Below the pieces are notes generated by a model, which saw only the letters and a list, made by a program, of their open reading frames with translations, did not search any database and had not been told where the DNA came from. A stretch of DNA of 64,000 nt from a virus, in the IMG/VR virus record IMGVR_UViG_3300032331_003609, positions 1-64,000 of that record; one strand, 5' to 3'. Shown piece by piece: positions 52,245 through 62,413 of this stretch. A program made the translations under genes and the position numbers. The first letter of the stretch is position 1, and each line of letters starts with the position of its first letter.

Positions 52245-53141
52245 ATGAAAGTAATTTGGGTCCTAGAAAATATTAAAAAGGGACATAAATTTTTTTTACC
52301 AGAAATAGAGCTTCTTGGATTAATTGCTTCTGTATCTAACTGGAAGATCCTGTATCCAAAAACATCCACCCATCTTTATTGCGATTCATCAGTTTTAGAA
52401 TATCTAGATAAAATAGAGATATCAGATCTTTGGGAAACAATACACACGAATGAATTAGATTCCCCGGATCTAATAGACAGAAACCCATTCTGGGCAGCTT
52501 CAAAAATTAAAGTCATAAAGGAAATAGAAGCTCCATTTATAATAATGGATTGCGATCTTTATTTCAAAGATCAATGTTTAGATCTTGATTCATTTTCAGA
52601 ATTTGATATAATTACAAACCAAATAGAGGATGGGATAGGATACTATCCTACAAAAAGGGATTCAGTTATAAAAGACATGATAGATCCATTCGGATACAAA
52701 TCAAGCCATGCATTCAATGTTGCATTTCTTTATATAGGAGATGAAAGGATCAGAAAAGAATATACAGATCTGGCATATTCCTGGATGGAGGATCTTTCTA
52801 TGAAGAACGAAGAATCTTTAAGTGGAAAGTATATGATTTTTTGTGAGCAAAAAATGCTAAAGGAATTTGCTGATCTTTATGATGCTAAAATAATATGTCT
52901 AGCAGATCATTCGATAAAAGGAGCTGAGGAAAAGATCCCTATAATAAATGGGTATAAAACATTGAATCTTAATGATTCTAATTATGTTCATTTGCATAGA
53001 CTAAAATCAAGGGTTAAATCAAATACAGGTTTGTTCCTTGATACCAGAAGTGATGTTATTAAATCAATTTATAATTTAGATAAACTGATGGCTAAGCGAT
53101 CTTTTTCTGCTCTTAAGCTTTCTAATGAGGATCTATTCTAA
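52245..53141 (+). CDS. GT-A-type glycosyltransferase-like protein (298 aa)
   Basis: FWAASKIKVIKEIEAPFIIM then DCDLYFKDQ is a DxD-type motif in the expected place after a helix. The rest matches nucleotide-sugar transferases of the DUF6734 kind in general layout. It ends by overlapping the converging sulfotransferase gene by 20 bases. Confidence 0.65.
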   Translation: MKVIWVLENIKKGHKFFLPEIELLGLIASVSNWKILYPKTSTHLYCDSSVLEYLDKIEISDLWETIHTNELDSPDLIDRNPFWAASKIKVIKEIEAPFIIMDCDLYFKDQCLDLDSFSEFDIITNQIEDGIGYYPTKRDSVIKDMIDPFGYKSSHAFNVAFLYIGDERIRKEYTDLAYSWMEDLSMKNEESLSGKYMIFCEQKMLKEFADLYDAKIICLADHSIKGAEEKIPIINGYKTLNLNDSNYVHLHRLKSRVKSNTGLFLDTRSDVIKSIYNLDKLMAKRSFSALKLSNEDLF

Positions 53142-53760
53142 CCTTTCTTTTGTCTGATATGATAAAATCATAAACTTTTTTATCATCCATTTCTACCCCA
53201 ATATAATCAAGCATTCTTTTTATCTCTTCTATATTATGATCTACATATAGATCTTCATAATAAAAAATTGGCCATGATTTTTCTTCGGCTATTAACTTCA
53301 TTCTTTCCGAGAAGTGTAAAAACGAATTTGTTTCCTTCTCTATTCTTACTTTATCTATTTTATCTATTTCGTATATCTTAGGGATATCCCATCCCATTTT
53401 AGAATCTGCATTTACTAAAAGACTTTCAGCCTGTAGTCTTTTGTCTCTCCTATCCAGAACTATAACTCTTTCAAAAAATCCATCCATCCAATTTATGAAT
53501 TCTATTTCTTCTAGCCCTAAAGATTTTACCGGATGTTGACTACATCCAAAAAGTGTTTTTATTAAGATCTTATCGAATTTTAAAAGAGGATTTATGTGAT
53601 CAAAATCAAATCCTTTTCTATAATAGTCCACATAATTTCTTGGGTTAAATGGCTCATAGAAGCATTCAAAGCCTTCTGAATAGAGTTGTGATTCTAGCAT
53701 CCTATATAAAGAAGTTGAGCCAGTTCTGGGTCTAGCCAGTATTGCTATTTTATTAAACAT
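53122..53760 (-). CDS. Sulfotransferase family protein (212 aa)
   Basis: ILARPRTGSTSLYRMLESQL is a strong 5'-PSB loop (PRTGST), FYEPFNPRNY the following acceptor motif, and VIVLDRRDKRLQAESLLVNA fits the 3'-phosphate-binding segment. The length is typical of short Sulfotransfer_3/Stf0-like enzymes. It moves sulfate from PAPS to a hydroxyl group. It is the last gene of the minus-strand tailoring cluster and touches the next gene upstream. Confidence 0.82.
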   Translation of the reverse strand: MFNKIAILARPRTGSTSLYRMLESQLYSEGFECFYEPFNPRNYVDYYRKGFDFDHINPLLKFDKILIKTLFGCSQHPVKSLGLEEIEFINWMDGFFERVIVLDRRDKRLQAESLLVNADSKMGWDIPKIYEIDKIDKVRIEKETNSFLHFSERMKLIAEEKSWPIFYYEDLYVDHNIEEIKRMLDYIGVEMDDKKVYDFIISDKRKVRIDPH

Positions 53761-54318
53761 TTATAATAATTTATTGACATCTTTATTTTTTCTAAGCCTT
53801 TGACCATACGGAAATTGTTTGTTTTCTAATTCTGGTATATTTAAATAATCCAGTATTCTTTCAAATCCGTTGTTATAATATAATTCTTCGTATGATATAT
53901 TAAAATAACCTTTATCTAAATAATTATCTTTTATTCCTAGTTTTATCTCGTTAAAATATGATGTATCAGCATCTTTGATCAGTTCTTCTTTAAATACCCA
54001 ATTTCTATCCCAATTATTTGTTTTATTAGCATTTAACCATGATTCGATTTGTTCTGTTGCATTCTCTCTATATAGTATAATCGTTTTATCACACACTGAT
54101 AATAATTCAGAAAAGTCTACTTCTGGGTAATATGTTTCTTTAATTAAAAGATGTTGTGTACTATATTCCCAAGATTTAGGGGATGTTCCGTTCTTAAACC
54201 ATTCTTTATCGGAACTAGTTATTGGTTCGAATAGTGTTGTAAATTTTTTATTAAAATAAAACCAATTTGCTAAATTTGTTGAACCACTTCTTGGCTCTGC
54301 TAAGATTGTGATTATCAT
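53761..54318 (-). CDS. Sulfotransferase family protein (185 aa)
   Basis: ILAEPRSGSTNLANWFYFNK is the PAPS loop, TLFEPITSSD the following FEP motif, and KTIILYRENATEQIESWLNA the second binding segment. Shorter than the neighbour but with the same order of motifs. It lies directly before the sulfotransferase at 53122 with no gap. Confidence 0.8.
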   Translation of the reverse strand: MIITILAEPRSGSTNLANWFYFNKKFTTLFEPITSSDKEWFKNGTSPKSWEYSTQHLLIKETYYPEVDFSELLSVCDKTIILYRENATEQIESWLNANKTNNWDRNWVFKEELIKDADTSYFNEIKLGIKDNYLDKGYFNISYEELYYNNGFERILDYLNIPELENKQFPYGQRLRKNKDVNKLL

Positions 54319-54320
54319 GT

Positions 54321-54762
54321 TTAAATTATTTTATTTATAATTTTAGATTTAATTAACGTATATCTTTCAATATCAAACATCTCAGGTTTAAAATCTAAAT
54401 ATTCCTTCCATTGCCATTGGTGACCTGTTATGTTATAAGAGCTATTCATATAAAAATTATAAAGCTCGTCACAATAGACTGGTTCGGGTAATTTTCCGCC
54501 TACCCTTTTATTTGTTTAATTAATCCGGTAGAGTTGTTATAGACAATAACAATGTGAGATTTATTTAAATCCGGTGTTGCTTCTCTTAGTTCTATTAATG
54601 TGTCTTCATAATTACATCGGCCACAATTACCCATTCTTGCAATCATTTCGATAGAATAATGCTTTTCTAAATCAACCCAATAATATCCAATAAGATAGAG
54701 CCTATTTTATTTCCAACGATACTATCAATTATTTTTAATTGATGTGATCGAGATGATGCCAT
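54321..54762 (-). pseudogene. Frameshifted gene, about 147 aa when repaired
   Basis: An ATG at 54762, overlapping the upstream stop (TAATG), opens MASSRSHQLKIIDSIVGNKI. The coding signal then moves to a second frame (YYWVDLEKHYSIEMIARMGN and a CGRC pair) and, after a GGG run, to a third (GGKLPEPVYCDELYNFYMNS) that ends at 54321, next to the following gene. Adding one base at each of two points restores a single frame of 444 bases. This is either a decayed gene or two single-base sequencing deletions. The product is unrecognised; CxxC suggests metal or redox binding. Confidence 0.65.
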
Positions 54763-61474: not shown

Positions 61475-61851
61475 TATCCTTTTGTTTCGTCATAGGTAAT
61501 AGATCCGTCTGGTGTCATATGTCCGGTTCTGATTGCAGTTCCGCTTATCGCCGCAACATCTACTGGTGGTTCATGGTAGATCACGTCATATCCAACCCCA
61601 CGTCCGTAGTTTACACTCTCAATGTCAGGAATTACCGAAATTAGAAGTCTCCCTGTTTGTATGTAATCATTTAAAGCAACCTTTAGTTCGTCAAAAACTT
61701 GTTGGGAAGATTTAGGATTGTTCTCATCCTGCGGGACATCCCTGATTGCAACCCAAACGTTTTTTCCCTGGCTGAATTGTTGGTCTATTAACCACTGATG
61801 GCCTTTATGCCAGTTCTGCCATCTCCCGATATAAAGTGAGTATTTTTTCAT
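61474..61851 (-). CDS. HxGH nucleotidyltransferase (125 aa)
   Basis: SLYIGRWQNWHKGHQWLI carries the HxGH nucleotide-binding motif, and ISGTAIRTG the C-terminal ISxTxIR motif of the adenylyl/cytidylyltransferase superfamily. Overlap of four bases with the APS kinase gene suggests a shared step: it could adenylylate sulfate (the ATP sulfurylase job) but is much shorter than known ATP sulfurylases, so that role is a guess. NAD or sugar nucleotide formation is possible too. Confidence 0.7.
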   Translation of the reverse strand: MKKYSLYIGRWQNWHKGHQWLIDQQFSQGKNVWVAIRDVPQDENNPKSSQQVFDELKVALNDYIQTGRLLISVIPDIESVNYGRGVGYDVIYHEPPVDVAAISGTAIRTGHMTPDGSITYDETKG

Positions 61852-62285
61852 ATAGATTCTAGATTTAGAAGTGAGATAAGTTCCTCGAGGGATTCTTCAG
61901 GATTATCCCCATTTGTGAAAGTTTTATGATTGCTTACAGGGAATTCAAATGTTCCTACGTGGAATTTTTCTTTCCCCGAGAAATGTGGCCGATTGAAAAG
62001 AACTTCTATCACCTCATTATTCGCTTTTAGATCCTCCCTAATTGCACGATAAGGACAAACCATACTTATCACTACATCATGTCCCTTTTGGCTCATAAAG
62101 CGAGCTATAGTGAACGATTTTTCGATGTTTCTGATCCTTCCAGAGTATGAATAATCGGTATTTGGGAAGATCTCTCTTAGATCATCTCCATCTATCCAAA
62201 TAGTGCTATTCCCAAGTTTTTTTACCAGCCTGCTAGCCATCTCGGTCTTTCCCGTTCCTGGCTGTCCGATGAATAAATAAATCAT
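61848..62285 (-). CDS. cysC: Adenylylsulfate (APS) kinase-like protein (145 aa)
   Basis: IYLFIGQPGTGKTEMASRLV is the Walker A region, IDGDDLREIFPNTDYSYSGR matches the CysC segment after the first strand, NIEKSFTIARFMSQKGHDVV and VCPYRAIREDLK match its later motifs (I-S-P-Y-R in typical CysC). CysC phosphorylates APS to make PAPS, the sulfate donor for the sulfotransferases downstream. It is slightly short (CysC is about 200 residues) and the final third diverges. Confidence 0.8.
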   Translation of the reverse strand: MIYLFIGQPGTGKTEMASRLVKKLGNSTIWIDGDDLREIFPNTDYSYSGRIRNIEKSFTIARFMSQKGHDVVISMVCPYRAIREDLKANNEVIEVLFNRPHFSGKEKFHVGTFEFPVSNHKTFTNGDNPEESLEELISLLNLESI

Positions 62286-62296
62286 ATGCTTAAAAT

Positions 62297-62413
62297 TTAA
62301 TGGTTATATGTAAATGGATCTCTTTTTCTAATTTCTTCTATTTTTTTTAGAAATTCTTTCTTTTTTTTCCTTTTTTGGAAGTAATTTTTAATCCAGTTGA
62401 TTAGTTTTCTCAT
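62297..62413 (-). CDS. Small basic protein (38 aa)
   Basis: MRKLINWIKNYFQKRKKKKE begins a short, very basic helical frame ending at 62297. I start it at this Met because a late-type motif lies just upstream on the minus strand. It heads the minus-strand cluster. No family is recognised. Confidence 0.5.
   Translation of the reverse strand: MRKLINWIKNYFQKRKKKKEFLKKIEEIRKRDPFTYNH

Follow-up and report, generated by a model that had tools for sequence, protein, structure and literature searches.

What would a phage do with a halogenase, several oxygenases, and several sulfotransferases? The question arises from a 64,000-nucleotide stretch of viral DNA (the window), bases 1-64000 of the 244,850-bp record IMGVR_UViG_3300032331_003609. 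Here, a minus-strand run of 14 genes (62285 to 53122) encodes such enzymes around a central protein, termed AGH. Most of the enzymes end in a common carboxyl-terminal tag. We propose, at slightly better than even confidence, that the run is a cassette for protein or peptide modification, in which AGH would bear the substrate, the tag would recruit the enzymes, a dedicated module would supply 3'-phosphoadenosine 5'-phosphosulfate (PAPS), and a Hint domain might release the product.

The large terminase of this phage is T4-like. The nearest named phages are Sphingomonas phage PAU, Tenacibaculum phage PTm1, and Flavobacterium phage MaF61; some uncultured huge phages are nearer still. A preliminary description of the window noted the minus-strand enzyme set and its crowded arrangement. 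Every gene that it named is on that strand, and genes do overlap or abut (spacing of -4 to +32), with the exception of a single 614-bp gap after AGH. This gap contains a conserved 46-residue open reading frame (ORF) and a decayed gene. These two elements, and the tag, were all overlooked at first. The features are as follows (2OG, 2-oxoglutarate; APS, adenosine 5'-phosphosulfate; NMNAT, nicotinamide mononucleotide (NMN) adenylyltransferase; SAM, S-adenosylmethionine; pLDDT, predicted local distance difference test).

61848-62285, minus: APS-kinase-like protein (CysC type), 145 aa, no tag; PF01583, 3e-10
61474-61851, minus: HxGH nucleotidyltransferase, 125 aa, candidate compact sulfate adenylyltransferase; NMNAT-like profile, 2e-7
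61265-61474, minus: DUF2061 membrane protein, 69 aa; PF09834, 7e-17
60773-61252, minus: 2OG-Fe(II) oxygenase-like protein, 159 aa, C-terminus KTLI; PF03171, 0.005; HND83...H131; protein cluster 0
60416-60748, minus: membrane protein, 110 aa, no tag; protein cluster 10, 24 loci; no convincing match in Pfam, PHROG, or NCBIfam
59838-60401, minus: 2OG-Fe(II) oxygenase, 187 aa, C-terminus QNLI; PF13640, 4e-14
59374-59838, minus: 2OG-fold-like protein without HxD motif, 154 aa, C-terminus KSII; no Pfam match, weak PHROG match, 0.0035
58724-59368, minus: 2OG oxygenase, 214 aa, C-terminus KSLI; PF13640, 2e-4; phrog_81 (2OG oxygenase), 1e-7
57499-58722, minus: predicted flavin-dependent halogenase (tryptophan-halogenase family), 407 aa, C-terminus KSLI; PF04820, 7e-97
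56770-57498, minus: sulfotransferase-like protein, type STA, 242 aa, C-terminus RTLI; profile A6 to heparan sulfate 2-O-sulfotransferase, 0.0025
56468-56773, minus: small Cys-rich (zinc-ribbon-like) protein, 101 aa, C-terminus RTIL; protein cluster 5, 81 loci; phrog_13558 (function unknown), 7e-4
54933-56435, minus: AGH, 500 aa, whole gene
55572-56435, minus: AGH residues 1-288, ATP-grasp-like domain; AlphaFold pLDDT 90, Foldseek
55032-55568, minus: AGH residues 290-468, Hint/intein-fold domain; Foldseek, 3e-8 to 1e-7
54936-55031, minus: AGH residues 469-500, Cys/Trp/Tyr-rich tail PTCWCSSTYCGNWCYETWCPTCRWGGNQKFEP, proposed substrate
54765-54902, minus: conserved 46-aa ORF, immediately after AGH in 82 of 87 loci
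54321-54762, minus: decayed gene copy, broken reading frame (three-frame translation); protein cluster 36
53761-54318, minus: sulfotransferase-like protein, type STB, 185 aa, C-terminus NKLL; profile A7 to CurM, 3e-4, and NodH, 0.002
53122-53760, minus: sulfotransferase-like protein, type STB, 212 aa, no tag (C-terminus DPH); PF13469, 2e-4
62515-63741, plus: divergent radical SAM/SPASM protein, 408 aa, C-terminus KSLI, probably an outlying member of the cluster; PF04055, 8e-10; PF13186, 6e-5; phrog_21308, 2e-24

A Conserved Cassette

Is this gene set peculiar to one phage? Five related contigs were reached from the halogenase, and at least 105 IMG/VR loci from AGH; 80 of the latter were fetched. 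(These contigs are mostly fragments; their genes were called by a simple script, and duplicates were dropped only when C-termini were identical.) Gene order is conserved across about 85 loci: APS kinase (CYSC), nucleotidyltransferase (NT), DUF2061, oxygenase, a membrane protein (in some), halogenase, oxygenases, sulfotransferase A, zinc-type protein, and AGH; then the 46-aa ORF (in most), an SGNH protein, oxygenase, sulfotransferase B, and further enzymes. Some relatives add radical SAM, methyltransferase-like, and glycosyltransferase-like proteins.

Completeness was judged in those loci, 61 in all, where AGH is flanked on both sides by four genes or more. All 61 have 2OG oxygenases. Sulfotransferases A and B are present in 58 and 56, respectively, the zinc-type protein in 57, and the halogenase in 45. 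The preliminary description had posed the choice between one gene set held together and genes scattered among related phages. They are held together: halogenase, oxygenase, and sulfotransferase co-occur in 44 of these 61 loci. The cluster is genuine, and many uncultured large phages share it.

The 46-aa ORF begins 11-63 nt downstream of AGH in the 82 loci noted above, with the consensus MAxxERIERPAQTIKxxVAPLSxxLKxKVATAFQxVVxxIKxKHLS; by eye, a basic amino-terminus precedes a predicted amphipathic helix. The decayed copy has an intact counterpart of about 231 aa in related loci (L035:8786-9481, for example).

AGH itself belongs to no family in Pfam, PHROGs, or NCBIfam. No relative was found among 50,697 cultured-phage records at 1e-3, and none was confirmed in 84,980 bacterial and archaeal genomes.

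A Shared Carboxyl-Terminal Tag

What joins enzymes of such different ancestry? Most of them, of unrelated folds, end in K-x-x-K-[ST]-[LI]-[LI]. Counted without regard to kinship between loci, the tag is found in AGH loci on 163 of 196 oxygenases, 40 of 50 halogenases, 64 of 74 STA proteins, 54 of 65 STB proteins, 47 of 62 ZN4 proteins, and 15 of 17 RSAM proteins; even so, at least seven protein families with no relation to one another have it. In loci without AGH the corresponding figures are 3 of 80 (oxygenases), 1 of 61 (halogenases), and 0 of 23 (other oxygenase types). Moreover, the CYSC, NT, DUF2061, and AGH proteins of the same operons have the tag in 1 of about 162 cases, and amino acid composition alone predicts 0.9%. 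The tag is also bounded in space: 44-90% of genes from position -6 to +4 around AGH (AGH excepted) encode it, with a peak at -5 to +4, and frequencies are near background beyond.

One candidate cause, a DNA-level effect of gene overlap on the KSLI endings, was rejected as the main one: the CYSC and NT genes overlap their neighbors and lack the tag, amino acid variants are frequent, and the Lys and Asn codons are ordinary. The only strong codon bias is for ATA at the last position, as ATGA start overlaps would lead one to expect; other inner positions deviate modestly from internal usage. Variation among tags is conservative (KSLI, KTLI, NTII, KTVI). Together with the ordinary Lys and Asn codon usage, this indicates that the tag most likely is selected as protein sequence. 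Because the tag varies, the strict DNA pattern AARWCNYTNATHTRR has few matches in this phage's own genome: five, with no excess over the reversed control.

What might the tag bind? AGH and the 46-aa protein are natural candidates for its receptor, because both are constant parts of the cassette. Alternatively, the tag could be a degradation or compartment-loading signal, akin to degrons at the C-terminus or to the cargo peptides of encapsulins, by which enzymes are removed after use or packaged into the virion. Signals of this type, such as SsrA-type and cargo-loading peptides, usually consist of a brief C-terminal sequence shared by otherwise unrelated enzymes. Still, the presence of the tag tracks AGH, and non-tailoring genes of the same operon lack it; we therefore regard this explanation as rather unlikely.

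AGH and Its Cysteine-Rich Tail

If the tag brings enzymes to AGH, what would they find there? An alignment of 41 AGH sequences gave an AlphaFold model with mean pLDDT of 82. Residues 290-468 adopt a Hint/intein fold, as the preliminary description had it: the Foldseek matches are to inteins, bacterial intein-like (BIL) domains, and hedgehog proteins, and most top matches have TMt values of 0.7-0.8. The C-terminal HN of this domain is invariant (41/41). His291 occupies the position of the first catalytic Cys, and the B-block TxxH was not seen in the aligned block. The head, residues 1-288, was folded alone, and its top four Foldseek matches are ATP-grasp-type enzymes (gamma-GCS-like, 7e-4; ArgX, 0.01-0.02). 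A Pfam match to RimK reaches only 0.06, in two AGH members.

HN is followed by a disordered tail, 25-33 residues long, that usually ends in K[LIV]. In nearly all aligned members the Cys-rich segment follows HN immediately. Among 62 distinct tails, 57 have exactly six Cys residues; overall composition is 21% Cys and 19% Trp plus Tyr. In seven long homologues (L007, L094, L095, L111, L213, L214, and L218), a second, canonical Hint domain follows the Cys-rich segment, which thus lies between two Hints. The simplest reading is that each Hint in these long forms serves to release one end of a peptide.

The preliminary description left the substrate open among a peptide, a glycan, and a small molecule. 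The anatomy of AGH, with its Cys/Trp/Tyr-rich tail, favors the first of these.

Two other destinations for the enzymes must be weighed here. They could decorate virion proteins or glycans of the tail fibres or capsid, with AGH an adaptor or structural protein and the tag gathering enzymes at the virion or assembly site. Large fibre-like proteins (protein clusters 35 and 60) do follow the cassette in about a dozen loci; pelagiphage HTVC008M has its halogenase and oxygenases among head and tail genes; and in the cultured Achromobacter phage JWF a tail-fibre protein, encoded next to a radical SAM enzyme, has a Cys run plus a Hint domain. However, the tag is all but limited to AGH loci, and halogenases and oxygenases amid the virion genes of other phages lack it. 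The invariant Hint-peptide junction, moreover, is on AGH itself. We consider this explanation unlikely.

Or the pathway could make a small molecule or glycan, such as free tryptophan or a sugar that is halogenated, hydroxylated, and sulfated, with the AGH tail a metal-binding module only. The halogenase family acts mostly on free Trp and small aromatics, the viral enzyme VirX1 takes many small aromatics (PMC8407142), and the cassette includes glycosyltransferase-like and SGNH genes. Against this, no scaffold-building enzymes (nonribosomal peptide synthetase, polyketide synthase, or terpene) were seen in the cluster, and the Trp/Tyr/Cys-rich tail holds a conserved position after HN. A small-molecule product thus seems quite improbable, and we return to AGH as the bearer of a peptide substrate.

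The Tailoring Enzymes

Are the enzymes what they seem? The protein encoded at 57499-58722 is, by family and motif, a predicted flavin-dependent halogenase. As the preliminary description stated, it has the key residues of the tryptophan-halogenase family: GxGxxG, the catalytic Lys K77, WxWxIP, and E289 are all present. Across 50 halogenases from AGH loci, K77, E289, and W216 each are found in all 50 and P221 in 48; residue 218 is Trp or Phe (Phe in 21). That the enzyme is instead a peptidyl-tryptophan hydroxylase like QhpG, LodB, or GoxB, converting CWC to a tryptophylquinone-type cofactor, is highly improbable: Cys and Trp are indeed adjacent in the AGH tail, QhpG hydroxylates Trp within a protein already crosslinked by a radical SAM enzyme (PMC7876137), and NCBIfam matches to QhpG and LodB (2e-8 each) were found, but both fall below cut-off, the Pfam halogenase match is much stronger, K77 (50/50) and E289 are invariant, and WxWxIP is largely kept.

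Of four 2OG-fold proteins described at first, three have the HxD/E...H iron site. Assignment is firm for 59838-60401; matches are weaker for those starting at 58724 and 60773 (5e-3), which keep the site. The fourth, 59374-59838, lacks HxD and therefore may be inactive.

The three sulfotransferases of the preliminary description gain support at the level of family profiles, with the STA and STB matches listed above. Single sequences do less well: the protein starting at 53122 scores 22.2 bits against PF13469, short of the curated cut-off of 27, and those at 56770 and 53761 have no Pfam match. In the STA alignment (34 members), the sequence LPRCASTSF and conserved residues R84 and S92, eight apart, correspond to the two motifs of a PAPS sulfotransferase: the 5'-phosphosulfate loop and the 3'-phosphate R-x7-S.

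A further sulfotransferase-like protein (window 2304-2894, ending KAKIL) and an oxygenase-like protein (1323-2144) were noticed by eye, distant from the cluster.

Sulfate Activation

Sulfotransferases need PAPS; can the phage make it? The kinase at 61848-62285 scores 40.8 bits against PF01583 (cut-off, 21.1), and its P-loop and APS-binding motifs are kept in a 19-member alignment (A5). It is below curated NCBIfam cut-offs (TIGR00455, 42 bits against 138.7, so no equivalog by that model; NF004041, 4e-14). Its gene is conserved in 32 of the examined loci.

The HxGH protein is less familiar. Its closest solved structures are NMN adenylyltransferases, and by sequence it is a member of neither the ATP sulfurylase (Sat) nor the CysD family. 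A role as NMN adenylyltransferase in NAD salvage was considered and rejected: the sequence is NMNAT-like, but the genome context is sulfur metabolism. On 44 bacterial and archaeal contigs (L165-L208), the gene mostly lies directly behind the APS kinase gene. It follows CysH and sulfite reductase in Nitrospiraceae, and in marine Bacteroidota it has APS kinase on one side and SAM synthetase on the other. A Ferruginibacter contig (L199) encodes, in a row, an Asp hydroxylase, a DUF2061-APS-kinase fusion, the HxGH protein, a sulfotransferase, and a PKHD hydroxylase. Some cultured phages fuse the HxGH protein to CysC (phrog_10255), and the protein in the window corresponds to the C-terminal half of that family. 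The Ferruginibacter fusion (L199:3686-4384) suggests that DUF2061, too, belongs to sulfate activation.

Does the HxGH protein replace CysD? In a set of 60 genomes related to a single marine Bacteroidota genome, 27 encode APS kinase (E<1e-40). Ten of these have the HxGH protein and no strong match to PF01507 (the CysD/CysH family), and 17 show the reverse; none has both, and none has neither. The chance of such a split is about 1e-7 if genomes are independent, which relatives are not. Sat was found in 0 of the 60. Of 30 HxGH-bearing genomes from several phyla, 23 have neither Sat nor a strong PF01507 match. The mutual exclusion of HxGH protein and CysD beside APS kinase suggests that the HxGH protein probably makes APS; it is a good candidate for a compact sulfate adenylyltransferase. 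If so, the phage probably is able to make PAPS. The idea of a PAPS supply for the sulfotransferases, already raised in the preliminary description, is thus strengthened by genomic context: the conserved HxGH-CysC pairing in bacteria, the phage fusions, and the exclusion of CysD.

In marine Bacteroidota, and probably also in Marinimicrobia, proteins of this kind (112-168 aa) occupy the place of CysD beside APS kinase; they are candidates for an unrecognised ATP sulfurylase.

Comparison with Known Systems

The cassette resembles pathways for ribosomally synthesized and post-translationally modified peptides (RiPPs) in that an encoded C-terminal Cys/Trp-rich peptide adjoins several tailoring enzymes. 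It differs in its carrier, which has about 470 aa of folded domains in place of a short precursor with leader and core; in having Hint instead of leader and protease; in the C-terminal tag shared by its enzymes; and in being phage-borne. No RiPP recognition element (RRE) domain was found among Pfam and NCBIfam matches of cassette proteins, and radical SAM proteins occur in some loci only.

Flavin-dependent halogenases near 2OG oxygenases are known from T4-like phages, including pelagiphage HTVC008M and cyanophages, among them Syn10, the source of VirX1 (PMC8407142). In contrast to the present cassette, the halogenase loci without AGH that we examined lack the tag and almost never have PAPS genes nearby. 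Phage sulfotransferase genes also are known, their function unclear (PMC10580990). In the Qhp system (QhpC, QhpD, QhpG), a halogenase-related flavoprotein acts on Trp of a Cys-crosslinked protein (PMC7876137). The phage enzyme, unlike that flavoprotein, keeps the halogenase Lys. To our knowledge, the Qhp system has no counterpart of the phage sulfotransferases or of the Hint precursor.

Inteins, BIL domains, and hedgehog Hints share the fold and C-terminal HN with AGH, and the second Hint of the long forms is canonical; the first Hint differs in having His for the first Cys. The bacterial CysC and HxGH pair (Marinimicrobia, Bacteroidota) is the same adjacent pair, with the DUF2061 fusion in Ferruginibacter as a further likeness, but it serves general sulfur metabolism, whereas the phage pair sits in a sulfotransferase cassette.

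Two further arrangements deserve mention. In phage JWF (NC_029075.1, L211:2299-3750), the Cys run of the tail-fibre protein reads NCNCDCNCNCS and directly precedes a canonical Hint; the radical SAM enzyme adjoins. And ten halogenase loci without AGH (L091, L092, L102, L105, L114, L139, L148, L149, L160, and L163) form a second, untagged phage cluster of like logic, with a Cys-rich protein of 128-160 aa (ending like CNCNCTFCACACW), a radical SAM/SPASM-like protein, a protein of 210-220 aa, the halogenase, and an oxygenase.

Elsewhere in the window, several proteins (at 3742, 10119, 15211, 20604, 48923, and 49857) have amino-termini like MK[YH][LI]..F..F, recalling T4 capsid-targeting sequences. 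Past its end, inspection by eye pointed to four more proteins: one at L008:1-2265 that resembles glycosyltransferases and has at least 754 aa; two long ones, at L008:5827-7272 and L008:7850-9235, whose Cys motifs are like those of radical SAM enzymes; and one at L008:17123-19612 that is collagen-like, with G-A-Q-G repeats.

A Model for the Pathway

How might the parts work together? AGH would be the carrier, with an ATP-grasp-like head, a Hint domain, and the Cys/Trp/Tyr-rich peptide at its C-terminus. The tag would dock the enzymes on one partner, most simply AGH or its 46-aa neighbor. Docked enzymes would then halogenate (at Trp or Tyr), hydroxylate, and sulfate (at hydroxyl groups) the Cys-rich peptide, with APS made by the HxGH protein and converted to PAPS by the CysC protein for the sulfotransferases. 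The AGH Hint, having kept HN and lost its first Cys, may free the peptide through Asn cyclisation; in long forms, the canonical second Hint could cut the other end. The product might be displayed on the virion surface or released as a peptide. By analogy with the Cys run and Hint on the JWF tail-fibre protein, a role in the virion is plausible.

Several points weigh against this model. Self-cleavage by the AGH Hint is uncertain, because the first catalytic Cys is absent. The ATP-grasp assignment of the head is weak (TM, 0.3-0.4). Tail residues do not co-vary cleanly with the enzyme set, and no clean link was found between tail Trp and the presence of a halogenase: several complete-looking loci lack the halogenase and keep the conserved CWC, so that Trp conservation does not track the enzyme. 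The Cys residues of the tail could merely bind metal. Finally, Sat and the HxGH protein occur together in five genomes, two of them Nitrospiraceae.

A more ambitious version of the model is tentative, and on balance we doubt it. The cassette would be a new phage ribosomal-peptide factory that combines an interchangeable docking tag, an ATP-grasp/Hint scaffold with Hint excision instead of a protease, and two-protein sulfate activation with an unrecognised minimal ATP sulfurylase. Any enzyme that gained K[ST]LI could then join the factory. In the literature on phage RiPPs, sulfotransferase-halogenase combinations, Hint-tail-fibre-Cys proteins, and new ATP sulfurylases, we found no description of such a system.

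Implications

Together, these results suggest that phages operate an assembly line of their own for decorating peptides, which would be a previously undescribed type of pathway. The sulfate-activation result reaches further, to the many marine bacteria that have APS kinase and no recognised ATP sulfurylase. By giving many enzymes a common route to a single substrate, the tag would offer a simple and portable principle, one that might serve in engineering new peptide-tailoring pathways. If the model is true, phages make their own halogenated, hydroxylated, and sulfated peptides, which would account for the 2OG oxygenases, halogenases, and sulfotransferases that recur, with no known role, in marine phages.

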